NCBI GenBank assembly: GCA_947626285.1
Contig: CANQRR010000022.1
Coordinates: 1 to 54,977, forward strand
Direction of reading: 5' to 3'
Source: an uncultured Lachnospiraceae bacterium
GTDB taxonomy: Bacteria > Bacillota > Clostridia > Lachnospirales > Lachnospiraceae
Length of the DNA stretch: 54,977 nt
In this document: in pieces, positions 4,861-30,517 of the stretch
Layout: each line of letters begins with the position of its first letter
Numbering within the stretch: the stretch's first letter is position 1
Made by a program: the position numbers and the translations under genes
The notes under the pieces: generated by a model
Database searches by the model: none
Told to the model about the DNA's origin: nothing
Seen by the model: only the letters and a program-made list of their open reading frames with translations

Positions 4861-5619
4861 TTATATAGAGATCACATCTGCCATATCATAGATCCCAGCG
4901 GGCTTGCCCGTGAGATACTTTGCCGCCTGCACTGCGCCCTTCGCGAACACACCACGCGAGTACGCCGTATGTTTGAACTCGATCACCTCGTCGAATCCGG
5001 CGAAGATCACCTCATGCTCCCCGACGATATTGCCGCCGCGCACCGCGCTGATGCCGATCTCCTTCTTGTCCCGGCTCTGCCTGCGGCCGCTCCGGTCATA
5101 AATATATTCATATTGATTATCCAGCGCCTCGTTCAGGCTGTCCGCCAGCGCGAGCGCCGTCCCGCTGGGCGCGTCCACCTTGCGGTTGTGGTGCTTCTCC
5201 ACGATCTCCATGTCAAACCCCGCCGGAGCCAACAGCTTCGCCGCCTCCTGCACAAGCTTCAGCAGCATGTTGATGCCAAGCGACATGTTCGCGGACTTCA
5301 TGACAGCCGTCTTCGCACCCGCCGCGCGAATCTGCTCCATCTGCTCCTGCGTGTAACCGGTCGTGCAGAATACCGCCGCCACCTGTTTCTCCGTGCAGTA
5401 CGCAAGCAGGGAATCCAGCGCGCCGGGAGCAGAAAAATCGATCACAACGTCCGCCTCGACGTCGCAGTCCGCAATGTTCGTAAACACCGGATAGTCCTTA
5501 TCGCCCTTGTCCTCCAGGTCGACGCCCGCTACGATCTGCGCGTCCGCGTCCGCCTCCACGATGTCCGTCACCACACGGCCCATGTAACCATTGCAGCCGC
5601 TCATAATGATTCTTGTCAT
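4861..5619 (-). CDS. dapB: 4-hydroxy-tetrahydrodipicolinate reductase
   Basis: It reduces the DapA product with NAD(P)H in the diaminopimelate/lysine pathway. The 252-residue product begins with the dinucleotide motif SGCNGYMGR. It carries the catalytic stretch EKHHNRKVDAPSGTA, whose His-His and Lys are the DapB active-site residues. Length is usual (240-270). It lies between dapA (112-base gap) and lysC (37-base gap) on the same strand. The operon layout says its product feeds peptidoglycan cross-links and lysine. Confidence 0.96.
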   Translation of the reverse strand: MTRIIMSGCNGYMGRVVTDIVEADADAQIVAGVDLEDKGDKDYPVFTNIADCDVEADVVIDFSAPGALDSLLAYCTEKQVAAVFCTTGYTQEQMEQIRAAGAKTAVMKSANMSLGINMLLKLVQEAAKLLAPAGFDMEIVEKHHNRKVDAPSGTALALADSLNEALDNQYEYIYDRSGRRQSRDKKEIGISAVRGGNIVGEHEVIFAGFDEVIEFKHTAYSRGVFAKGAVQAAKYLTGKPAGIYDMADVISI

Positions 5620-5731
5620 CTTCTCATCCTCTTCCCGATTATTCTATACTTCCAGATTTCTCTGTATTGCCATTTCCCATGATGATCGACACACTCTCAC
5701 TGCAAAGCATTTGAAACGGTGTCAGGTTCCA

Positions 5732-6616
5732 TCACAGAATCCCATAATCACGCATCGCCGTCTCCAGCCGCTTTGCGTTCGCCTCCTCCATCTCGGAGAG
5801 CGGACTGCGCAGCGGACCCGCGTTCCTGCCCTGCAGATTCAACGCTTTCTTCACCGGAATCGGGTTAACCTCGCAGAACAGAGCCTCGATCAGCTCAATT
5901 GCCGCGAGCTGCAGCTCACAGCTCTTCTTCACATCGCCCGCCAGATAAGACGCCACGATCTCGTGCGTCTGCCTCGGCGCAATGTTTGAGAGCACCGAGA
6001 TCACGCCGCAGCCGCCAAGCGAGAGGATCGGTACGATCTGGTCGTCGTTTCCGGAATACAGCTCGATCTCGTCCCCGGCGAGGCTCATCAGCTTCGCCAC
6101 CTGCGAGATGTTGCCGGACGCTTCTTTCACGCCCACGATGTTCTTCACATTTTTCACCAGGTACGCGGCAGTCTCCGGCAGGATGTTGCAGCCGGTCCTG
6201 CTCGGCACGTTGTACAGGATGATCGGCAGGCTCACCGACTCCGCAATCTTCGTGTAATGCTGCTTCAAGCCATTCTGCGTCGCCTTATTATAGTATGGCG
6301 TCACGAGCAACAGCGCGTCCGCGCCGTCCTTCTCCGCCTCCTGCGAGAGCTGGATCGCGGTCTGCGTGCAGTTCGAGCCCGTGCCCGCGATCACCGGGAT
6401 GCGCTTCGCCACTTTTTCGATTGCAAAGCGGATCACCTTCGAGTGCTCCTCCATCGTCAGCGTGGCCGACTCTCCCGTCGTCCCGCAGATAATGATCGCA
6501 TCCGTCCCCCCCGCGATCTGGTACTCCAGAAGCTCCGCGAGCGCGTCGTAATTCACATCCCCGTTCTCATACATCGGCGTGACGATTGCCACACCGGCCC
6601 CCTTGAAAATAGCCAT
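5732..6616 (-). CDS. dapA: 4-hydroxy-tetrahydrodipicolinate synthase
   Basis: It condenses pyruvate with aspartate semialdehyde, the branch point to lysine and diaminopimelate. The 294-residue TIM-barrel shows GTTGES (residues 45-50), Tyr135 in LYNVPSRTG and the Schiff-base Lys164 in VGVKEASGN. AAGGAGGATAAGGGC precedes the ATG at 6616. It is the first gene of the operon. Its transcript carries a lysine riboswitch far upstream (6864-7029) and a pair of 54-base repeats in the remaining leader. Confidence 0.96.
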   Translation of the reverse strand: MAIFKGAGVAIVTPMYENGDVNYDALAELLEYQIAGGTDAIIICGTTGESATLTMEEHSKVIRFAIEKVAKRIPVIAGTGSNCTQTAIQLSQEAEKDGADALLLVTPYYNKATQNGLKQHYTKIAESVSLPIILYNVPSRTGCNILPETAAYLVKNVKNIVGVKEASGNISQVAKLMSLAGDEIELYSGNDDQIVPILSLGGCGVISVLSNIAPRQTHEIVASYLAGDVKKSCELQLAAIELIEALFCEVNPIPVKKALNLQGRNAGPLRSPLSEMEEANAKRLETAMRDYGIL

Positions 6617-22411: not shown

Positions 22412-23041
22412 ATGAAAACAAAATTTACTGTCTCGCAACTCGTCATTCTCGGCCTTATGACAGCGATCCTGCTACTCATGGCCTACACCCCGCTCGGTTA
22501 TCTGAATATCGGACCCCTCGCCATCACGTTCAACGTGATTCCGGTGGCGATCTCCGCGATCACGCTCGGCCCTGCAGGCGGTGCGATCGTCGGCGCGGTG
22601 TTCGGGCTCACCAGCTTTCTGCAGTGCATCGGCGTGGGCGGCACAAGCGCGATGGGAGCCGTCCTGTTCGGCATCAACCCGGTGCTTGCGTTCATTCAGC
22701 GCTTTGTCCCGCGCGTGCTCGACGGCTTCCTGCTCGGCTACATTTTCCGGGGCATGAGGAAGCTGACGAACGTCTCCGTCGCCTGCCTGGCGACCGGCTT
22801 CTGCTCGGCGTTCCTGAACACGCTGTTCTTCATGAGCGCGCTCATTCTGCTCTTCGGCAATACCGAATACATGCAGGGGCTGATCGGCGGCAAAAACGTG
22901 ATCCTGTTCGTCTGCGGCTTTGTCGGTGTCAACGCGGTCTTTGAGATGATCTCGTCGACGATCATCACGGGCGCGGTCGGGCTGGCCCTGTACAAGGCGC
23001 GCTTCGTGCCCGCCACAGCGGCGAAAAATGCGGCGGCCTGA
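22412..23041 (+). CDS. ECF transporter S component, probably for pantothenate
   Basis: This 209-residue membrane protein is the substrate-binding subunit of an energy-coupling-factor transporter. It has about six hydrophobic segments: QLVILGLMTAILLLMAYTPLG, AITFNVIPVAISAITLGPAGGAIVGAVFGL, SVACLATGFCSAFLNTLFFMSALILLFG and a C-terminal pair. AACAAGGAGGATTTTCAC precedes the ATG. The EcfA/A'/T subunits must be encoded elsewhere (group II type). coaX, 88 bases downstream, phosphorylates pantothenate, so pantothenate is the best guess for substrate. That is context, not a residue-level call. An 89-bp internal piece (22809-22897) reappears at 27864-27952. Confidence 0.85.
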   Translation: MKTKFTVSQLVILGLMTAILLLMAYTPLGYLNIGPLAITFNVIPVAISAITLGPAGGAIVGAVFGLTSFLQCIGVGGTSAMGAVLFGINPVLAFIQRFVPRVLDGFLLGYIFRGMRKLTNVSVACLATGFCSAFLNTLFFMSALILLFGNTEYMQGLIGGKNVILFVCGFVGVNAVFEMISSTIITGAVGLALYKARFVPATAAKNAAA

Positions 23042-23129: not shown

Positions 23130-23909
23130 ATGATCCTGGCTGTAGACATCGGAAATTCAAATATCGTGCTGGGCTGTTTTGAGGGAGAGCAGATCCATTT
23201 TATCGAACGGCTCTCGACGAACCAGGACTCCACCTCGCTCGAATATACGGTTCTGATCAAAAATATCCTTGAGCTCAACCACTTGAGCAATCTTTCGTTC
23301 CAGGGCGGCATCATCTCGTCGGTGGTGCCCTCAGTGACGCAAACCATCAAAGACGCGATGATCCGGTTGACGAACGCGCCCGTGATGGTCGTCGGTCCTG
23401 GCATCCGCACGGGGCTTAAAATCATGCTGGATAATCCGGCTCAGCTCGGCAGCGACCGTGTAGCGGACGCGATCGCCGCGATCCACGAGTATCCCTGCCC
23501 GCTCATCATCATCGATATGGGCACAGCCACGACGATCTCCGTCATCGGCCGGGACAAAAGCTTTCTCGGCGGCATGATCATTCCGGGGCTCAAGGTCTCG
23601 CTTGAATCACTCTCGATGCGAACCTCGCAACTCCCGAAGATCAGTCTGGACCCACCGAAGAAAGTCATCGGCTCCAACACCGTCGACTGTATGCGCAGCG
23701 GTATTCTCTATGGCACCGCCGCCGGCCTCGACGGCTCCATTGAACGCATTGAGGAAGAGCTCGGCGAGCCGTGCACGGTCATCTCCACAGGCGGCATGGC
23801 GAAGACCGTCATCCCCTTCTGCCGGCATAAGATCATCATCGACGACCTGCTGCTGTTAAAGGGGCTCATGCTGATCTACAACAAAAATCGGAAGGAAAAC
23901 GGGACGTGA
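23130..23909 (+). CDS. coaX: Type III pantothenate kinase
   Basis: It phosphorylates pantothenate, the first step of coenzyme A synthesis. The 259-residue product starts with LAVDIGNSNIVLGCF. It shows GPGIRTGLKIMLDNPAQLGSDRVADAIAA, IDMGTATTISVI and FLGGMIIPGLKVSLESL, all CoaX signatures of the ASKHA fold. AAGGAGATTTGCC precedes the ATG. It follows the S-component gene on the same strand and is likely co-transcribed. Confidence 0.96.
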   Translation: MILAVDIGNSNIVLGCFEGEQIHFIERLSTNQDSTSLEYTVLIKNILELNHLSNLSFQGGIISSVVPSVTQTIKDAMIRLTNAPVMVVGPGIRTGLKIMLDNPAQLGSDRVADAIAAIHEYPCPLIIIDMGTATTISVIGRDKSFLGGMIIPGLKVSLESLSMRTSQLPKISLDPPKKVIGSNTVDCMRSGILYGTAAGLDGSIERIEEELGEPCTVISTGGMAKTVIPFCRHKIIIDDLLLLKGLMLIYNKNRKENGT

Positions 23910-23933: not shown

Positions 23934-24074
23934 TTATTCTAACCGCCGCCGCCGCAGGCGCTCCTCTTTCCTCCTGGACGAACAACTATCTTCTCCGCCG
24001 GCAACTGTCTCCAGCTCTTTCTCTTCCAGCTCTTTTTCTTTTCCTAAAATTTCTTCTTTCTTTTCTTCTGACAT
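23934..24074 (-). CDS. Short double-glycine precursor peptide (46 residues)
   Basis: GGAGGAAAGTAAAA precedes an ATG at 24074. The product starts MSEEKKEEIL, is almost all Glu/Lys/Leu to residue 22, then reads LETVAGG (21-27). After the Gly-Gly comes a 19-residue tail, EDSCSSRRKEERLRRRRLE, with one Cys and eight Arg. The LExVAGG ending matches the leader ends of the two Nif11-type precursors nearby (LEAVAGG, LGAVAGG), although the Nif11 domain is absent. It lies 99 bases after the radical SAM gene on the same strand, so it is probably the last gene of that operon. Whether the basic tail is modified is unknown. Confidence 0.65.
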   Translation of the reverse strand: MSEEKKEEILGKEKELEEKELETVAGGEDSCSSRRKEERLRRRRLE

Positions 24075-24173
24075 TTTTACTTTCCTCCTTTTACCTTTTC
24101 CTTTTTCCATTCATGTGTTTTCTTTGCGTCCGGCGGCCCATCCGCCTCCGGAAATTTTCGTTTCCTTTCTTCC

Positions 24174-25565
24174 TCACCTCCCTTCCGGCAGTGTGATGGT
24201 CTCCATGACCTTACTGATCTTGTCCGCCCATCCTCCTCTTAAGAGGGTGCATGCCGCCATATCGCGTCCCATGATGTCGTCCGGGCTGGTCTCCAGCGCG
24301 CCGGCGCGGCAGCCGCCCAGACAGTATCCGGCGTGCTCGCAGCCGCGGCATTCCGGGTTGTGCGCCAGCACTTCCGATGCCCTGGTCTCGATGAGCCGCA
24401 TATAGGACGAGTCGGTAATGCACTGTTTCAAGCCAACCTGCGTGATGAACGGATAATTCTCCTGAATGGGCATGCCGGATAAGGACATGCAGGGCAGTGC
24501 CCGCCCTTCCGCGGAGATATACATCACCATGCGCGCGTGCCCGCAGACGCACTCCCGCGACGGGTCTTTGCACCAGCTTTTCTTCATGGGGATGCTCCAC
24601 TCCTTCGGGCTCCCCGGCGAGGCGCTGAAAAAACCGCCCAGCTGCAGCGACAGGGGCATACCGTCCTCATAGTACTGCGGGATATAGTCCAGGTAGACCT
24701 GGAACAGGTCTTCTATCTGAATGGCCGGACCATACCCTCCCTCTTTCCATGCGCCCACATCCGAGATGGGGTTGGTCTTTAAGGAACTGCAGCCCACGCC
24801 CGCCAGAAACCGGACCGTTTCCCGCAGGGTGTGCTTGTTCTGCTCGTGAATGCACATTTCCGAGCTTGTGGGAAAGCCATGCTCACGGCAGCGCAGGAAC
24901 GCGTCCGTCACATATTTTTCCGCGCCCGGCACGCCGCGCAGCCAATCATGCCAGCCCACGCCGTCGAAGCTCATATTGAACACAGGGCGGATGCCCCGGT
25001 CCTCCAGCTTTTTCAGCAGATCGTCCGTTACCAGACGGCCGTTTGAATAGATCTGGGAAATGCGCACGCCGCCGTCCAGCAGCACGTCCACGAGGTCGAA
25101 GAAATCCGGGCGGACCAGCGGCTCCCCGCCGGTCAGGGTAACTTCCGCGATTCCGCAGTCCACGATCTGATGGGCAATGCTCATCGCCGTCTCATGATCC
25201 AGCTCCCCGTATTTGGCATCCGGCGCGGACATGTAGCAGTGCTTGCAGCGGTAGTTACAGCGCCCCGTCACGGACCAGTGCGCCATGCGGATGTAGCGGT
25301 TGTCATAGGACTTGTATATCTGGTCGTCCTTCAGCTTCGTCCCCGGCTCGCAGGCGTGTATGACGCCTTCTTCTTCCAGCTTTTTCAGTGCTTTTTTCTG
25401 CTGCCCGGACGCGCCCTCCAGGTCTGTGCAACCGTCCATGTCGAGGAGCAGCTCTATGTCCGCTTTCTTCAGGAACGTAGTCCGCCCGCTGCGCCGGTCC
25501 AGCAGCGCGAACGGCAGCTTCTGCCAGCCGCGCAGCGCATAACGCTCATCCAGTATGTAGTACAT
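24174..25565 (-). CDS. Radical SAM/SPASM peptide maturase
   Basis: The 463-residue product (ATG at 25565, AAGGAGAAGGGAAAC upstream) has three parts. Residues 1-85 look like a winged-helix leader-binding (RRE-like) domain. The radical SAM core has CNYRCKHC (Cys103, 107, 110) and the SAM-binding LTGGEPL. The SPASM region holds Cys at 332, 339, 341, 359, 382, 406, 409, 415 and 419 (ECRGCEHAGYCLGGC) for auxiliary Fe-S clusters. SPASM maturases install thioether, C-C or C-O cross-links or epimers in RiPP precursors. It lies 37 bases after a Nif11-type precursor and before a second short precursor. The chemistry cannot be read from sequence; the Cys-free core of the first precursor argues against a thioether there. 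Confidence 0.9.
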   Translation of the reverse strand: MYYILDERYALRGWQKLPFALLDRRSGRTTFLKKADIELLLDMDGCTDLEGASGQQKKALKKLEEEGVIHACEPGTKLKDDQIYKSYDNRYIRMAHWSVTGRCNYRCKHCYMSAPDAKYGELDHETAMSIAHQIVDCGIAEVTLTGGEPLVRPDFFDLVDVLLDGGVRISQIYSNGRLVTDDLLKKLEDRGIRPVFNMSFDGVGWHDWLRGVPGAEKYVTDAFLRCREHGFPTSSEMCIHEQNKHTLRETVRFLAGVGCSSLKTNPISDVGAWKEGGYGPAIQIEDLFQVYLDYIPQYYEDGMPLSLQLGGFFSASPGSPKEWSIPMKKSWCKDPSRECVCGHARMVMYISAEGRALPCMSLSGMPIQENYPFITQVGLKQCITDSSYMRLIETRASEVLAHNPECRGCEHAGYCLGGCRAGALETSPDDIMGRDMAACTLLRGGWADKISKVMETITLPEGR

Positions 25566-25602
25566 GTTTCCCTTCTCCTTTTGTCTGTTACACCCTGGCA
25601 TT

Positions 25603-25890
25603 TTACCTGTCAAAAAGGGCTCCGACCCGACTCCTGATGGTGTCGACGATACCGACTCTTCTGTCCTCATCACTCTTCATGTTTCCACCCAGGTTCTTGG
25701 TGGTGTCGACAATACCCCCGGCGACTGCCTCAAGCGCGTCGTCCGAGAGCTCGCCGACGGTGCCGCCAAGCTGACCGAGCAGCTCCTGAGCCTTCTCTGC
25801 CGTCACTTCCTCGCCGTACTCCTTCGCGGTGGCGATGATCTCCTCCACCGTCCTGGCTTTCTGCAGCTTCGCAAGCATTTCCTCGTTCAT
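25603..25890 (-). CDS. Nif11-type leader RiPP precursor, Cys-free core
   Basis: The 95-residue product has a Nif11-like leader (LAKLQKARTVEEIIATAKEY, then LSDDALEAVAGG with the Gly-Gly at 58-59). The 36-residue core has no Cys. It contains GIVDT twice, at residues 59-63 (GIVDTTKN) and 80-84 (GIVDTIRS), as though two modification sites had been duplicated. The ATG has AGGAGGAGAAACATA upstream. A promoter with LytTR-like repeats lies in front of it, and the radical SAM maturase follows 37 bases later. The repeated VDT[TI][KR] blocks are the likely substrate of that enzyme (inference). Confidence 0.88.
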   Translation of the reverse strand: MNEEMLAKLQKARTVEEIIATAKEYGEEVTAEKAQELLGQLGGTVGELSDDALEAVAGGIVDTTKNLGGNMKSDEDRRVGIVDTIRSRVGALFDR

Positions 25891-26015
25891 TATGTTTCTC
25901 CTCCTTTTCTTGTTCGATATACAGGAAACGCGCTTGCGTCGTTTCCCGGATTTTTGCTTTCCTGATCATTGATACGCCGCAATATGGATTATGTTATAAT
26001 AGTTTTTCTGTTGAT

Positions 26016-26021
26016 ATTATA
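26016..26021 (-). promoter_or_regulatory. -10 box of the Cys-free precursor operon
   Basis: TATAAT on the minus strand, about 125 bases upstream of the precursor start and 34 bases from the proximal LytTR-like repeat. There is no good -35 box, as expected for an activated promoter. Confidence 0.65.
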
Positions 26022-26035
26022 CCACATTTCCCGCT

Positions 26036-26091
26036 GCCTTTGTGAAAGCCGAATTGACGTTTGTGAAATCAAACCTGCCGTTTGTGAAATC
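26036..26091. promoter_or_regulatory. LytTR-type direct repeats upstream of the Cys-free precursor
   Basis: GACGTTTGTGAAATC (26056-26070) and GCCGTTTGTGAAATC (26077-26091) start 21 bases apart. A weaker third copy, GCCTTTGTGAAAGC, starts at 26036. Two 9-bp half-sites with a 12-bp spacer are the arrangement bound by LytTR response regulators. The same pair occurs at 27101-27136 in front of the other precursor. Confidence 0.75.
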
Positions 26092-26177
26092 GAAATGAAA
26101 TTGAGACAAGAACAAGCTACTGCTAGTAGTTAGACTTTAGGCAGCAATTTTCATAGCTTGTCCTTTCTTAATCTGAC

Positions 26178-26855
26178 TTAAAAGAACAGAAATACTTCAG
26201 CAATCGATATTGTGTTTCCGAGAATATGCGAAAAGGTGCTGATCACGCAATTGCCCGATTTATGATAGATCACCGAGAAGATCAGACTGTCGATGAATAC
26301 ACAGGCGACATCATAAAGCACCACTCCTATATTTCCTGCGGCGATATGTCCGGCGGCAAAGACAACCGATGACGCCACTGCGCAGAGCCAAAACGGGAAC
26401 AGTTTCATTCCCTTCCCAAGAAAAAATCCCCGATATGCGATTTCTTCGCCAAATGCCGCAATGATAACCTGACCGATCAGCAGTGCTGTTCTATCAAAGG
26501 ACAGAATAGAACCCGCCCGCCCCATTACATGGGCGACAAATTCTCCGCTGAAGATCAAATTTCCAACAACACTCGTTGCGATAGCACTCACACCTGGCAG
26601 CAAGGCCCAGACGATCACATCCGGCTTTTTAAGATCCTCCATGATCGTATGAAAACGCAATCCCGATTCAGATCGTGGCGTTTTGGCGACCGCCTCTGTA
26701 ATAAAGAAAAACGCGATCCCCACAAACACAGAATAACCCGCGATATTCGAGGACGGCACAGCTTTTGTTACCGTCAATAATATCATGATCGCCACGCCTG
26801 TCATCGTGAGGGCAACACTCTTCCTATTATTTTCCATAACTTGCTGACCTCTCAT
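26178..26855 (-). CDS. CPBP family intramembrane metalloprotease
   Basis: The 225-residue protein has about six to seven membrane helices and the CPBP (Abi) motifs: FGEEIAYRGFFLGKG (Glu-Glu, Arg) near residues 127-141 and FAAGHIAAGN (metal His). A late helix carries SHILGN. AGGAGGAAACGAA precedes the ATG at 26855, whose ATGA overlaps the stop of the truncated TetR frame. CPBP proteins occur in bacteriocin loci as immunity or leader-processing factors. Here, between two double-glycine precursors and with no C39 peptidase in sight, either role fits (inference). Confidence 0.85.
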   Translation of the reverse strand: MRGQQVMENNRKSVALTMTGVAIMILLTVTKAVPSSNIAGYSVFVGIAFFFITEAVAKTPRSESGLRFHTIMEDLKKPDVIVWALLPGVSAIATSVVGNLIFSGEFVAHVMGRAGSILSFDRTALLIGQVIIAAFGEEIAYRGFFLGKGMKLFPFWLCAVASSVVFAAGHIAAGNIGVVLYDVACVFIDSLIFSVIYHKSGNCVISTFSHILGNTISIAEVFLFF

Positions 26856-26995
26856 TTCGTTTCCTCCTGCACTGCCGATATTGTGCCCCTGTATGTCTCT
26901 TTCAAATGGGATTTATTCTCTGCGCCTGTCTCACGGGCAAGCGTAAAGGCGGCATCAACAACCATATCTTTTGTGATCTTCGGTTTTGGCTGCAT
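26852..26995 (-). pseudogene. Truncated TetR-family regulator (47 residues)
   Basis: The frame starts MQPKPKITKDMVVDAAFTLARETGAEN, which is the first helix of a TetR-type DNA-binding domain. The expected helix-turn-helix residues do not follow. Instead an unrelated stretch (KSHLKETYRGTISAVQEETK) runs to a TGA that overlaps the CPBP start as ATGA. It keeps a strong promoter and a palindrome typical of TetR autoregulation. It looks like an in-frame deletion remnant that still serves to couple translation into the protease gene. Confidence 0.65.
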
Positions 26996-27020
26996 AGTTT
27001 TCCCTTTTTATAATTTTCGT

Positions 27021-27049
27021 TATATAACAATAGTTATATTATAAGTCAA
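27021..27049 (-). promoter_or_regulatory. Promoter with palindromic operator for the TetR remnant/protease unit
   Basis: TTGACT (27044-27049) and TATATA (27021-27026) are 17 bases apart on the minus strand. The palindrome TATAACAATAGTTATA (27023-27038) lies across the spacer and -10, a usual place for a TetR operator. Confidence 0.75.
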
Positions 27050-27100
27050 AATGCTGGTTACGTCAATTCCTTCGAAATAAACTTTCTCCCAATAAGGGAC

Positions 27101-27136
27101 GATTTCATAAACGTCAAGTTTGATTTCACAAACGTC
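27101..27136. promoter_or_regulatory. LytTR-type direct repeats upstream of the Cys-rich precursor
   Basis: GATTTCATAAACGTC (27101-27115) and GATTTCACAAACGTC (27122-27136) start 21 bases apart. Read from the gene, they have the same orientation as the pair at 26056-26091, and the spacer AAGTTT is almost the same too. Confidence 0.78.
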
Positions 27137-27171
27137 AGTCCATCGGTCTTAAAGAGCGGTGAAAAACATGT

Positions 27172-27177
27172 TATAAT
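27172..27177 (+). promoter_or_regulatory. -10 box of the Cys-rich precursor
   Basis: TATAAT, 35 bases after the proximal LytTR-like repeat and about 110 bases before the start codon. Confidence 0.65.
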
Positions 27178-27286
27178 ACAACAGGAAATGAAATATAGAA
27201 CAATTCCTAACAAAAAGGACGGACCGGCGTATCAAATAGAAAAGGTAACATTAAAACCAAAATACATAACTTAAGGAGGTAACACT

Positions 27287-27607
27287 ATGAACCAGAAAGA
27301 ACTTTTGGAAAAGGTAAAGGCGGCGAAGTCCGTGGAGGAGATCATTGAGATCTCGAAAGAGACAGGCAAAGAGATCGCGGCCGAAGAGGCAAAGAAGCTT
27401 TATGACGAGCTCCAGAAAGCCGGGGAGCTCTCAGACGAGGATCTGGGTGCTGTCGCGGGAGGCGGGGTACGTACAGAGGACGGTTTTCTTATCGTGTCGC
27501 CGTTTTATGGCTGCGGCGACAGCACCTCTTTTTTTAAGACCTGCACCGGCTGCAGTCACTGTGGCTGGCACCAGGGCGCAATGGTATGTTGGCTCAATGT
27601 TGCGTAA
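27287..27607 (+). CDS. Nif11-type leader RiPP precursor, Cys-rich core
   Basis: The 106-residue product begins with a Nif11-like leader (LLEKVKAAKSVEEIIEISKETG) ending GELSDEDLGAVAGG (Gly-Gly at 58-59). It is clearly homologous to the leader encoded at 25603-25890. The 47-residue core has five Cys (76, 86, 89, 92, 101) in the pattern YGC...KTCTGCSHC...MVC and many Gly, Phe and Trp. TAAGGAGGTAACACT precedes the ATG and a terminator follows. No lanthionine synthetase or second maturase is in the window. The core may be a substrate of the radical SAM enzyme on the other strand or of enzymes elsewhere. Confidence 0.88.
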   Translation: MNQKELLEKVKAAKSVEEIIEISKETGKEIAAEEAKKLYDELQKAGELSDEDLGAVAGGGVRTEDGFLIVSPFYGCGDSTSFFKTCTGCSHCGWHQGAMVCWLNVA

Positions 27608-27734: not shown

Positions 27735-27955
27735 GAAATGTCCGGGGGCGGAATACAAGTGGAAATTTCTACAGATCCTTCCGACAATAATTCAGATACG
27801 CCGCGGCAACGCCGGCCCCTGCAAACAGCAGCCCGATCGCAAGCATCGCCGGATTCAGCCTCTCGTTCCTGAACACGCTGTTCTTCATGAGCGCGCTCAT
27901 TCTGCTCTTCGGCAATACCGAATACATGCAGGGGCTGATTGGCGGCAAAAACAAG
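27735..27955. pseudogene. Chimeric scar: ABC permease tail joined to a piece of the S-component gene
   Basis: 27735-27868 is about 92% identical to 29702-29836, the 3' end of the ABC permease gene and its downstream flank (minus strand, including the codons for LNYCRKDL and the TAG). 27864-27952 is identical to 22809-22897 inside the S-component gene except for one base at 27940. The two blocks share CGTTCC at the junction, which points to joining at microhomology. Neither piece has a start, so nothing functional is expected. It lies between the Cys-rich precursor and the hipA remnant. Confidence 0.85.
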
Positions 27956-27960
27956 AAAAA

Positions 27961-28543
27961 TTAAATTTGGCAGGCGCTAAATGCCGGACGCATCTCTTCT
28001 ATCTGCCTGCGGGAAAGTCCATACCCCGAAGCCAACGGACACCAGTTGTCTCTTACCCTTCCAAGAATCTCGCCAGCGTACCTCTCGGCATCTGCCTGCG
28101 TGATCCCGAATCGCGGAGCCGTCTGAATCGCCAGATTGACAGAAATGCGGTTATCATTCTCATCTACATTCAAAGACAATTCATCCCCATACGGCACCGG
28201 GTTGACGTCGTATAAAGGCGAGAGAGTCCAACCTCTTTCCGTCAAAAGAAATGCGTGATTCCTAAGGTGGTCGTCCGTCCGTATTGGAGACCGCCATATT
28301 GAACACGATGCGTTTCCACAGCTCAAGCAGATCCGTCTTCGGACTCGCACCGTTCGACTTGATGAAAGACACAAGATCCAGATAGCTGTCCCCGTCCGCC
28401 GCAGAAGCCCCGTCGTCTCTCCCAAGCAGCGTCATTGCCGAGGCAAAATGAATCCGCCGCTTTCCTTCCCGGTCAAATCTCTTCACCAGAAAGGTGTTGC
28501 CGGATTTTGAAAATCTTTCCAGTCTCGATTCCTGCATAAACAA
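27961..28543 (-). pseudogene. hipA-like kinase gene, 5'-truncated and frameshifted
   Basis: Two minus-strand frames together read as the C-terminal half of a HipA-type serine/threonine kinase: MQESRLERF, NTFLVKRFDREG, RIHFASAMTLLGRDD, LELWKRIVFNMAVSNTD, then after the shift DDHLRNHAFLLT and GWTLSPLYDVNPVPYG. The break is an extra GGAC: GGACGGACGACC stands where GGACGACC is expected (plus strand 28273-28282). The N-terminal third and any HipB partner are missing. It is a dead remnant unless the four bases are lost again. Confidence 0.85.
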
Positions 28544-28739: not shown

Positions 28740-29144
28740 TTATTTTAATTGCAAAAATTCTGCAGGAGTCATAATAGTTGGTTTTTCTACACCAGATTCA
28801 AGAAAATCCTTATCTCCGGTTAACAGAATGTCTGCTTTGGCGGCAATCGCAGCGCGCAGTATGGGTCTGTCCTTTGTATCCCTAATCTGCACTTCTATAG
28901 TAAATTCATTTTCCGGAACAGGAACTAATTCTATAGTCAGAAGTGCAACCGATAAAAACTTGTCCAGAGAGCTCAACCGAAGAGGAAATTTCTTGTTGAA
29001 TATCCGCTTTATCTCATCTACATTCTGTTCGCATATCATGCCATGATTCGGATATGAAGCGGCCTTCTGGTATGCCTGCCACGGGATACCGTCTGCTCGC
29101 AATGCTGCAGATATGAGTACATTGGTATCAATTAATATTCTCAT
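28740..29144 (-). CDS. PIN-domain toxin
   Basis: The 134-residue product is a PIN-domain ribonuclease of the kind found in type II toxin-antitoxin pairs. It starts MRILIDTNVLISAAL (first catalytic Asp). It has a Glu in NVDEIKRIF, RDTKDRPILRAAIAAKADILLTGDKDFL (further acidic residues) and IMTPAEFL at the end, matching the putative PIN toxin family. Its ATG overlaps the antitoxin stop as ATGA, so the two are translationally coupled. Confidence 0.9.
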   Translation of the reverse strand: MRILIDTNVLISAALRADGIPWQAYQKAASYPNHGMICEQNVDEIKRIFNKKFPLRLSSLDKFLSVALLTIELVPVPENEFTIEVQIRDTKDRPILRAAIAAKADILLTGDKDFLESGVEKPTIMTPAEFLQLK

Positions 29145-29416
29145 CCATTATCGTCCTCGCTTCTCAACTCCTTGACAAGTGCAATGATATCGTCGTCATT
29201 AGTAAGCCCGGAACGTTCCGCTTCTCCGGCCATCTCACTCTGTAGAACCTGCATAGCATATATAGCGGAATTTACGATACGTACATTGCTGCCTTCAACA
29301 ATAAAAGTAATCCGATCCCCGCATGTTATCCCCAATGCTTCCCTGACATCCTTTGGAATGGTGACCTGTCCCTTAGCCATTACCTTTGCGTTATCAATAA
29401 AAGCGTTTACAGCCAT
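29141..29416 (-). CDS. AbrB/SpoVT-type antitoxin
   Basis: From the ATG at 29416, preceded by AAAGGAGTGTTCATT, the product is 91 residues. A longer frame to 29578 runs through the promoter and is rejected. Residues 7-50 form a swapped-hairpin AbrB domain (AKVMAKGQVTIPKDVREALGITCGDRITFIVEG). The C-terminal tail is acidic and should wrap the PIN toxin. A perfect palindrome at its promoter is the likely site of autorepression. Confidence 0.9.
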   Translation of the reverse strand: MAVNAFIDNAKVMAKGQVTIPKDVREALGITCGDRITFIVEGSNVRIVNSAIYAMQVLQSEMAGEAERSGLTNDDDIIALVKELRSEDDNG

Positions 29417-29450
29417 AATGAACACTCCTTTGCTATTTGTTAGTCCAAAA

Positions 29451-29477
29451 GTAGGGATTTCCCTACTCTTATTATAT
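29451..29477 (-). promoter_or_regulatory. Promoter and operator of the AbrB/PIN operon
   Basis: TATAAT (29472-29477) is followed by the perfect palindrome AGTAGGGATTTCCCTACT (29451-29468) over the expected start of transcription. Confidence 0.8.
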
Positions 29478-29560
29478 GCAATATTGCTTAGGGAATCAAC
29501 TGGAAAATCTTTAAAATGCTTCCGCCCAATGTTTTCTGTGATCTCCCTCAACAATTGACA

Positions 29561-29591
29561 TAAAAATTCCGCAGACACATATTCTCACGCA
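29561..29591. repeat. Half copy of the hairpin at 28574
   Basis: TAAAAATTCCGCAGACAC and TTCTCACGCA match 28574-28604 with two differences over 31 bases. The copy stops before the right arm of the hairpin and continues as unrelated sequence. Confidence 0.8.
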
Positions 29592-29734: not shown

Positions 29735-30517
29735 CTACAGATCCTTCCGACAATAATTCAGATACGCCGCGGCAACGCCTACCCCCGCGAACAGCAGCCC
29801 AATCGCAAGCATCGTCGGATTCAGCCTCCCGTTCCGGAGAATGTCCGCGCCTTCACAGTATCCGAACGGAGTGATGTACTTAAAAAAATTCAGCTTTTCA
29901 CTCATGTTTGCGATCAGATTCAGGAAATAGAGCACCGTAGTGGTCCCCAGACCGATGCCGAAGCCGCCGCGGCGCAGAAAGGAGGATATCCCGAAGCAGA
30001 CCGCCGCCAATTCGACCTGCGCCAGAAAGCAGGCCGCATGCATCAACAGAAGTTCCTTCCATGGGATTGCCTCGCCGATCGCGCAGATAGAAAAAAGCGC
30101 CGTCAGAAAAACGATCAGGTTCAAGACCACGATCTGAAGCAGGAGCGCCGCCAGTTTCTCTGTCACCACGCGCGTCCGCGATACCGGATGTGTCAGCAGA
30201 AACTCCGCCGTCCCGTTCTGTTCCTCCTTTGACAGAATCGAACTGCCGATGAGCGCGGCAAAAAAGGCGCCGCCCAGTCCGACCACGTTTTCGCACTCAA
30301 TCGCGTAAAATCCGGTCAGCGAACCGAAATCCAGGCGGTCCATGCCAAACGCCGCCGCAAAACTCCCCATCGCAGCGAACAGATGGCCAATCGACTCCAT
30401 CTCTCCTTTCATCTCCGGGAACACCAGAAGGCAGATCACAAGCAGGACCGCGATCGCGGCCGTCCATATCGCAAAGGAATTTCTGCCCTGCCGCAGTTCA
30501 TGTTTTGTGAGCGTCAT
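29735..30517 (-). CDS. ABC-2 type transporter permease
   Basis: The 260-residue protein has six membrane segments (FAIWTAAIAVLLVICLLVF, VGLGGAFFAALIGSSIL, LQIVVLNLIVFLTALFSICAI and three more). It carries the loop SKEEQNGTAEFLLTHPVSRTRVV that marks ABC-2 permeases. Its ATG overlaps the stop of the ATPase gene by four bases. A diverged partial copy of its 3' end lies at 27735-27868. It may protect against, or export, a peptide from the adjacent RiPP locus, but general drug or lipid export is equally possible. Confidence 0.88.
   Translation of the reverse strand: MTLTKHELRQGRNSFAIWTAAIAVLLVICLLVFPEMKGEMESIGHLFAAMGSFAAAFGMDRLDFGSLTGFYAIECENVVGLGGAFFAALIGSSILSKEEQNGTAEFLLTHPVSRTRVVTEKLAALLLQIVVLNLIVFLTALFSICAIGEAIPWKELLLMHAACFLAQVELAAVCFGISSFLRRGGFGIGLGTTTVLYFLNLIANMSEKLNFFKYITPFGYCEGADILRNGRLNPTMLAIGLLFAGVGVAAAYLNYCRKDL

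Follow-up and report, generated by a model that had tools for sequence, protein, structure and literature searches.

A locus of an uncultured Lachnospiraceae bacterium, at positions 23,934 to 27,607 of a contig of 54,977 nucleotides (contig C22, hereafter the window in its whole length), carries a radical S-adenosylmethionine (SAM) peptide maturase, three small genes, P1, P2 and P3, whose products have double-glycine (GG) leaders, and a gene for a CPBP membrane protease. The source genome comprises 3.73 Mb in 147 contigs. The initial annotation recognized here a locus for ribosomally synthesized and post-translationally modified peptides (RiPPs) with GG leaders and a radical SAM/SPASM maturase, which our analysis bears out. 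We propose, with a probability of about three in four, that the window holds a single arm of a RiPP system of gut bacteria whose parts have become split.

What does the undivided system look like? In the relatives one cluster comprises an NHLM exporter pair (a C39 peptidase-ATP-binding cassette (ABC) protein and a second ABC protein), often a 65-residue protein and an extracytoplasmic function (ECF) sigma factor, at least one precursor with a GG leader and three C-x-C-x3-G-x-G units (hereafter CxC units), and the maturase. Most likely it is the cysteines of these units that the maturase modifies, and the exporter would cut at the GG and secrete the product. The exporter and the sigma gene of the window strain reside on contig C4, and the maturase on C22 beside P3, a decayed CxC precursor gene. 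The ECF sigma factor most likely switches on the P1-maturase genes, P2, their dispersed relatives and its own gene, and a LytTR two-component system probably co-acts through boxes spaced by 21 bp before several promoters. The system is ordinary in kind, being a radical SAM RiPP system with Nif11 leaders; it stands out by an apparently unnamed core class, by a relic that accounts for the odd third precursor and by a strong, testable regulatory link between scattered precursors. A puzzling locus of three cores and one enzyme is replaced by a testable scheme.

The maturase family and its usual substrates

We read the maturase from the ATG at 25565, which gives 463 residues; an alternative frame of 499 residues from a GTG overlaps P1. 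The protein matches the radical SAM model PF04055 with 78.4 bits, and the CxxxCxxC motif together with seven invariant cysteines (C341, C359, C406, C409, C415, C419 and C439 in the window protein) is present in all 28 aligned members of the family. We take the seven-cysteine pattern to be a SPASM domain; the Pfam SPASM model matches 15 of the 28 members, the window maturase not being among them. The RRE-like N-terminus that had been suggested for the enzyme found no support: no PqqD/RRE model occurs among the matches of the 28 members, and the N-terminal 100 residues have no relevant relative in the PDB.

The family is large, with 2150 proteins at E<=0.001 among 8000 candidates scored, and lacks an NCBIfam equivalog among the best 25 of 80 rows, where the top score is 92.8 bits against a cut-off of 400. 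The model TIGR04103 (nif11-class peptide radical SAM maturase 3) scores 75.2 bits against 725. We agree with the earlier impression that the locus matches no named system. The genome has no second copy of the enzyme; one further match at E<=0.001, a partial one (33%), lies on contig C64. By the maturase, the closest named relatives are metagenome-assembled genomes (MAGs) of Lachnospiraceae, Marvinbryantia and Oscillospiraceae that bear the label 'Lapin' (French for rabbit).

The usual company of the enzyme was read from 80 of 183 related maturase loci. Small GG-leader open reading frames (ORFs) with CxC cores adjoin the maturase in these relatives: by a strict rule, which accepts stretches with at least two C-x-C-x3-G-x-G units, 53 of the 80 loci carry them on the maturase's strand. 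Two-unit stretches number 116 on that strand, 2 on the opposite strand and none in 80 reversed sequences. Grouped by identity to the window maturase, the loci that carry them are 11 of 11 at >=70% (two of them from one MAG), 21 of 28 at 55-70%, 21 of 31 at 47-55% and none of 10 below 47%. A looser rule (C.C..G..G) also finds 53 loci, 50 of them common with the strict set and 56 being found by either rule; 112 of its 114 ORFs lie on the maturase's strand, and the reversed control gives 2 of 80 loci.

The looser rule yields 108 distinct precursors, of which 95 have exactly three units. Among these 95, glycine stands at unit position 7 in 93, 94 and 75 peptides (units 1 to 3) and at position 9 in 94, 93 and 93; since the rule itself requires two glycines after each CxC, the presence of glycine is partly selected, but its fixed positions are not. 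Only the cysteines and glycines of the nine-residue unit are near-invariant. Two pairings suggest themselves from this geometry: Cys1-Gly7 and Cys3-Gly9 are both six residues apart, and Cys1-Gly9 and Cys3-Gly7 are nested.

No name for a CxC-x3-GxG Nif11 class appears in the titles and opening lines of abstracts retrieved from the open-licence literature, a source in which absence carries little weight; the five class proteins that bear a source's name among the 120 matches listed are each called by a generic nif11-leader name. The core class is apparently unnamed. Next to maturases less than 47% identical the visible GG peptides carry other cores, so the wider family has other substrates as well.

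We tentatively hypothesize, at somewhat less than even odds, a fuller picture of this class. Its peptides, with mostly Nif11-type GG leaders, would have each of their three units turned into a bicycle by one radical SAM/SPASM enzyme through two Cys-to-Gly thioethers (both i to i+6, or nested as i+8 and i+4; six per peptide), and their production and secretion would fall to an NHLM cluster that includes a dedicated ECF sigma factor. In the window's genus, this sigma factor would have come to control a whole scattered set of peptides (Nif11, NHLP, zinc-ribbon-like and PoyD-linked) whose precursors come and go between strains. The maturase family can now be assigned a clear class of substrates, and the strict repeat of this class, two cysteines and two glycines per unit, predicts the number and spacing of cross-links.

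SkfB, a sactipeptide maturase, is the nearest solved relative of the window enzyme by sequence. The likeness extends to the radical SAM core, the SPASM-type cysteine pattern and the cysteine-containing cores of the usual substrates. Unlike sactipeptides, the CxC precursors present three regular units with glycine as the only near-invariant possible partner of thioethers that are themselves conjectural here.

P3, a relic of a CxC precursor gene

P3 encodes 58 residues, or 46 from the second ATG, and has no match to the Nif11 leader model TIGR03798. At the DNA level it tracks the intact precursor genes of loci L015 and L025 across the upstream region and the leader. The core has suffered a deletion and loss of frame, its remnant GCGCCTGC-GGCGGCGGCGG encoding Ala-Cys-Gly-Gly-Gly-Gly in another frame before a stop. 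Locus L015 contains a relic of identical type followed by an intact gene. Judged by this alignment, P3 is a degraded relic of a CxC-x3-GxG precursor gene, rather than the third working precursor for which it had been taken.

An intact CxC precursor is not found in the window, where no two-unit stretch occurs. A profile built from nine precursors gives six matches in the genome at E<=10, including P3, an ORF on contig C79 and GG peptides on C99. The C79 ORF, of 65 residues, has one full and one imperfect CxC unit; C99 holds, besides the GG peptides, a CxC fragment between stops. The C99 matches (locus L202, 1196-1447 and 2251-2316) are GG-leader peptides whose cores resemble zinc ribbons by eye (CPNCG..CPECG). 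Similar peptides occur in L026, in L029 and, behind the sigma motif described below, in genome G009 (L175); Pfam zinc-ribbon matches stay under the cut-offs.

P1 and P2 as possible substrates

All three leaders end in VAGG, as first described, and the counts of residues and cysteines were likewise correct, the core of P1 having no cysteine and that of P2 five. Of the two leaders first described as Nif11-like, that of P2 (106 residues) scores over the cut-off of TIGR03798 (33.7 bits, cut-off 32.3), and that of P1 (95 residues) falls under it at 27.9 bits though aligned to the GG end.

The core of P1 is conserved in one relative, G022, where it lies upstream of a maturase fragment. Over 36 codons the nonsynonymous (dN) and synonymous (dS) divergence of the two cores is 0.062 and 0.242. 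With so few changes in the G022 core, P1 is best regarded as retained as a real precursor; the notion that P1-type cores are noise, being unrelated, frameshifted or read-through in relatives, was dropped in view of this near-identical core. By eye, loci L170 and L025 contain P1-type leaders whose cores run, in antisense orientation, into what seems to be the 3' end of the pantothenate kinase gene, a sign that this island may have undergone deletions more than once.

It might be argued that the locus is merely decaying, with a maturase bereft of substrates and remaining precursors that are remnants or are exported unmodified. The P3 relic, the C99 fragment between stops and the P1-type cores that by eye are frameshifted or read-through in G005 and G009 would all fit such a course. 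It is nevertheless unlikely, given that the maturase is intact and diverges from the G022 fragment with dN 0.046 and dS 0.179 over the first 115 codons, that the P1 core has the dN and dS values just given, and that a short CxC gene, one of its units complete, survives on C79.

P2 belongs to a family of 91 proteins at E<=0.001 with paralogs on contigs C25 and C4; its core looks like a zinc ribbon by eye, and Pfam finds none in it. P2-type precursors occur near the maturase in only 2 of the 80 loci, L015 and L061. L061 at first seemed to support P2 and the maturase as one system, a support weakened by a second radical SAM/SPASM-like protein encoded about 30 nt behind its P2-like gene (4946-6340, plus strand, 464 residues, 31% identical to the window maturase). 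This second enzyme is a candidate for the own maturase of P2-type peptides. A relative of it with 48% identity is encoded in L050 (5712-7064, plus strand), behind another GG precursor. The window's genome holds no copy of the L061 enzyme closer than the window maturase itself, so the latter may have a role on P2 in this strain.

The initial annotation placed one maturase over three different cores, and a single tolerant enzyme, guided by shared Nif11 leaders, could in principle modify P1, P2 and P3 as ProcM does prochlorosins. P1 does lie directly upstream of the maturase with its core conserved in G022, P1 and P2 have a common promoter motif, the genome lacks a radical SAM enzyme of the kind that follows the P2-like gene in L061, and there is precedent for scattered Nif11 precursors served by ProcM-type enzymes (PMC10783134). 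In a ProcM-like system the precursors go with the single enzyme. This is not what is observed: genome G005 (96% complete, 8% contamination) has P2-type precursors, the sigma factor and the exporter, while neither the window maturase (E<=1e-60) nor the second radical SAM enzyme of L061 (E<=1e-30) was found in it. Together with the rarity of P2-type genes near the maturase, the enzyme of their own in L061 and the relic state of P3, this makes the tolerant maturase distinctly improbable. The multi-core claim is unsupported, the family keeping company with another substrate class. Indeed, a maturase accompanied by unrelated substrates and precursors not kept nearby had been put forward as what would speak against a single system, and this is largely what we find.

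Returning to the split system, P2 may be unmodified, modified by another enzyme or, in this strain, modified by the window maturase, the first two possibilities being in better agreement with G005. P1 is the best local candidate substrate and P2 a poor one; P1 and the short CxC gene on C79 are likely the substrates left for the window maturase.

A promoter motif linking dispersed precursors

A common word precedes P1, P2 and Nif11 precursors on contigs C1, C4, C25 and C51. Written as YTAACA-N15-CGTATMAA, it occurs in the genome at seven exact sites and at one site with a single mismatch, that of P1; about 0.11 exact sites are expected by chance at even base use, and the reversed pattern gives none. 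Seven of the eight sites, over five contigs, precede genes with GG or NHLP leaders, and the eighth precedes the gene of the 65-residue protein followed by the ECF sigma gene. P1 and P2 are, on the evidence of their upstream sequences, members of a regulon marked by this motif.

Exact sites occur in nine of 60 genomes, the window's own included, and total 33 against 6 control matches. At least three sites are present in six genomes only, all of one genus, with 30 sites altogether. The 29 of these that were read (G009:C230 excepted) precede 23 precursors with GG or NHLP leaders, two operons of the 65-residue protein and sigma factor, two PoyD-type genes (by eye counterparts of the C4 gene with TIGR04517), one maturase relative and one acyl carrier protein gene. 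The last, in locus L184 of G009, is followed by an apparent acyl-activating enzyme, hinting that the regulon includes metabolism other than RiPPs. The singleton sites of G026, G044 and G054 have by eye no GG-leader frame within 600 nt downstream. The -10 half alone, CGTATMAA, was followed in 68 distant loci and abandoned for want of convincing conservation: 2 matches in 15,000 bp upstream of GG ORFs compare with 31 in 860,710 bp elsewhere.

The sigma gene lies at C4:53242-53766 (L014 11240-11767) and scores 120 bits to the sigma70-ECF model TIGR02937 (cut-off 42.9). Its operon is itself preceded by the AAC/CGT motif in the window genome (G000) and in G022, the putative recognition site of its own product; AAC/CGT boxes and autoregulation are hallmarks of ECF factors (PMC8103513). 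At E<=1e-20 the sigma factor is present in five of the six motif-rich genomes and in none of the 54 others (Fisher 1.1e-6, relatedness ignored). The ECF sigma factor most likely reads YTAACA-N15-CGTATMAA, a pairing we infer from correlation in related genomes only, mostly in MAG-based records. No ECF sigma factor for Nif11 precursors is mentioned in titles and opening lines of abstracts retrieved from the open-licence literature, which again says little about absence.

Could the motif instead be an operator of the RNA or protein kind that forms part of the 5' leader? Sequences resembling the Sigma-A TATAAT upstream of several sites by eye lend this some colour, but the boxes are those of ECF promoters (PMC8103513), their gap is constant here, and the motif both precedes the sigma operon in two genomes and tracks the presence of the sigma factor. 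We consider such an operator very unlikely.

In several maturase loci the ECF sigma factor and its relatives follow the conserved 65-residue protein, which contains FDFQRF... and, close to its end, ELELNAAGD; this end resembles that of a GG leader, and no Pfam or NCBIfam family matches the protein.

A second layer of control is suggested by paired boxes 21 bp apart upstream of P1, P2 and three places on C4. Contig C4 also encodes a LytTR regulator (PF04397, 32.2 bits against 22.6) and a kinase of the GHKL type. The 21-bp period is presumably a sign of LytTR regulators, which would bind these boxes. For a bacteriocin regulon, LytTR regulators are described as binding tandem repeats (PMC2714321).

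With a promoter word tied to one sigma factor, enzyme-less peptide genes that lie dispersed in the genomes of gut Clostridia and escape mining by cluster can be sought, with shared control, not neighbourhood, as the basis for grouping them.

The exporter and the split cluster

The absence of a C39 transporter noted at first is true of the window and not of the genome, where C39 domains have two matches, on C4 and C17. Both members of the exporter pair on C4 exceed their cut-offs (TIGR03796, 945.9 against 853.3 bits; TIGR03797, 716.2 against 709.4), and the same contig carries NHLP leaders, a PoyD epimerase and a radical SAM C-methyltransferase. A P2-type precursor adjoins the second ABC gene and is followed by the operon of the 65-residue protein and sigma factor. 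The 'missing' C39 exporter is the NHLM transporter on this sigma contig. Scoring the best 15 candidates per genome, we find the first NHLM ABC protein (ABC1) over its cut-off in all five genomes with the sigma factor and in two of the 55 others (3.8e-6).

Of the maturase loci, 41 have flanks longer than 5 kb at each end; among these, ABC1 is present in 25, the second ABC protein (ABC2) in 25, the sigma factor in 9 and CxC precursors in 31. The order exporter-sigma-CxC-maturase recurs in L029, L034, L061, L064, L079, L085 and L086; in L061 it runs ABC1, ABC2, P2-like precursor, second radical SAM enzyme, 65-residue protein, sigma factor, two CxC precursors and maturase. The parts thus form a single cluster in distant relatives, whereas in the window strain that cluster is split. 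The whole cluster would be the older state.

Like the NHLM/NHLP export systems (TIGR03796, TIGR03797, TIGR03793), contig C4 combines an exporter pair with NHLP-leader precursors; unlike them, the present system is linked to a CxC maturase and to precursors of Nif11 type, and an ECF sigma gene adjoins the exporter. The lah system of Lachnospiraceae C6A11 (LahA1-9/LahT) has comparable Nif11-type GG leaders and diverse cores, and its C39 protease LahT accepts many leaders, Nif11 and nitrile-hydratase types included. In contrast to lah, a lanthipeptide operon (PMC6363468), the present system has a radical SAM/SPASM maturase and precursors spread over several contigs under one promoter motif. Prochlorosins resemble it in their Nif11 leaders and in precursor genes scattered over the genome. 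ProcM makes lanthipeptides (PMC10783134), whereas here scattered P2-type precursors occur also without the maturase, as in G005.

Several observations weigh against the split system as we describe it. The strict rule misses units in 27 of the 80 loci; some unit-free loci have almost no flank, while L035, L039, L063, L077, L082 and L093 have 8 kb on both sides, and the 80 loci are only a limited sample of the 183. The short frame of P3 is common to L015 and may have acquired a new function, and the P1 leader, with dN 0.062 and dS 0.075 against G022, is under little constraint. At the two-mismatch level the promoter pattern gains 34 further sites, which are put down to chance, the total of 42 being lower than the 81 of the reversed control; only the eight best sites count. 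G028 has five sites and no sigma factor was found in its 71% complete genome, the sigma factor occurs in only 16 of the 80 maturase loci (three of them at 25-28% identity), and distant clades whose sigma factor has diverged yielded no exact promoter. Next to the sigma gene no anti-sigma factor was recognized; the score of an RsbW-like HATPase at a distance of about 6 kb stays under the cut-offs (43.7 against 145). Single LytTR-like boxes are weak, with 45 matches against 23 in the control.

Layout of the locus and neighbouring genes

Table 1. Features of the locus, in window coordinates
Feature	Position	Strand	Basis or remark
Type III pantothenate kinase gene	23130-23909		Adjoins the minus-strand genes P1, maturase and P3
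P3, decayed relic of CxC-x3-GxG precursor	23934-24110	-	Leader retained, core deleted and frame lost (DNA alignment with intact L015 and L025 genes)
Peptide maturase (radical SAM/SPASM), 463 aa; family associated with CxC-x3-GxG precursors	24174-25565	-	PF04055, 28-member alignment, 80 neighbourhoods
P1, precursor with Nif11-like leader and Cys-free core	25603-25890	-	Directly upstream of maturase; G022 ortholog with conserved core
Putative ECF-sigma promoter of P1-maturase	25969-25997	-	ATAACA-N15-CGTATCAA, one mismatch to motif
LytTR-like direct repeat upstream of P1: two boxes of 15 bp, 21 bp apart	26055-26090	-	
CPBP-family membrane protease gene, probably outside the system	26178-26855	-	PF02517
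LytTR-like direct repeat upstream of P2: two boxes of 15 bp, 21 bp apart	27102-27137	+	
Putative ECF-sigma promoter of P2	27207-27235	+	Exact motif
P2, precursor with Nif11 leader and five-Cys core	27287-27607	+	TIGR03798; paralogs on contigs C25 and C4; 91-protein family

The CPBP product matches PF02517 with 53.5 bits (cut-off 22.4). Its gene has no tblastn match at E<=1e-4 in the 80 maturase loci, nor in 14 further loci, several of them from the window's genome, and was rejected as a part of the system. Real as each of the five genes is, they do not make up one system with three substrates. A 47-residue ORF preceding the CPBP gene, which looks like a TetR start, had no match in Pfam.

The stretch adjoining P2 looks like a rearrangement scar. 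The short minus-strand frame at 27769-27954 is by eye a fusion of two fragments, its start repeating part of 22738-23016 and its end the C-terminus of the gene at 29735-30517. At 27961-28543, on the minus strand, the HipA C-terminal domain PF07804 extends over two frames (profile positions 135-213 and 52-136), a broken HipA-like gene. The minus-strand gene at 28740-29578 encodes a PIN-domain protein (PF13470, 58.7 bits), and with an adjoining ORF that is AbrB-like by eye it reads like a toxin-antitoxin pair.

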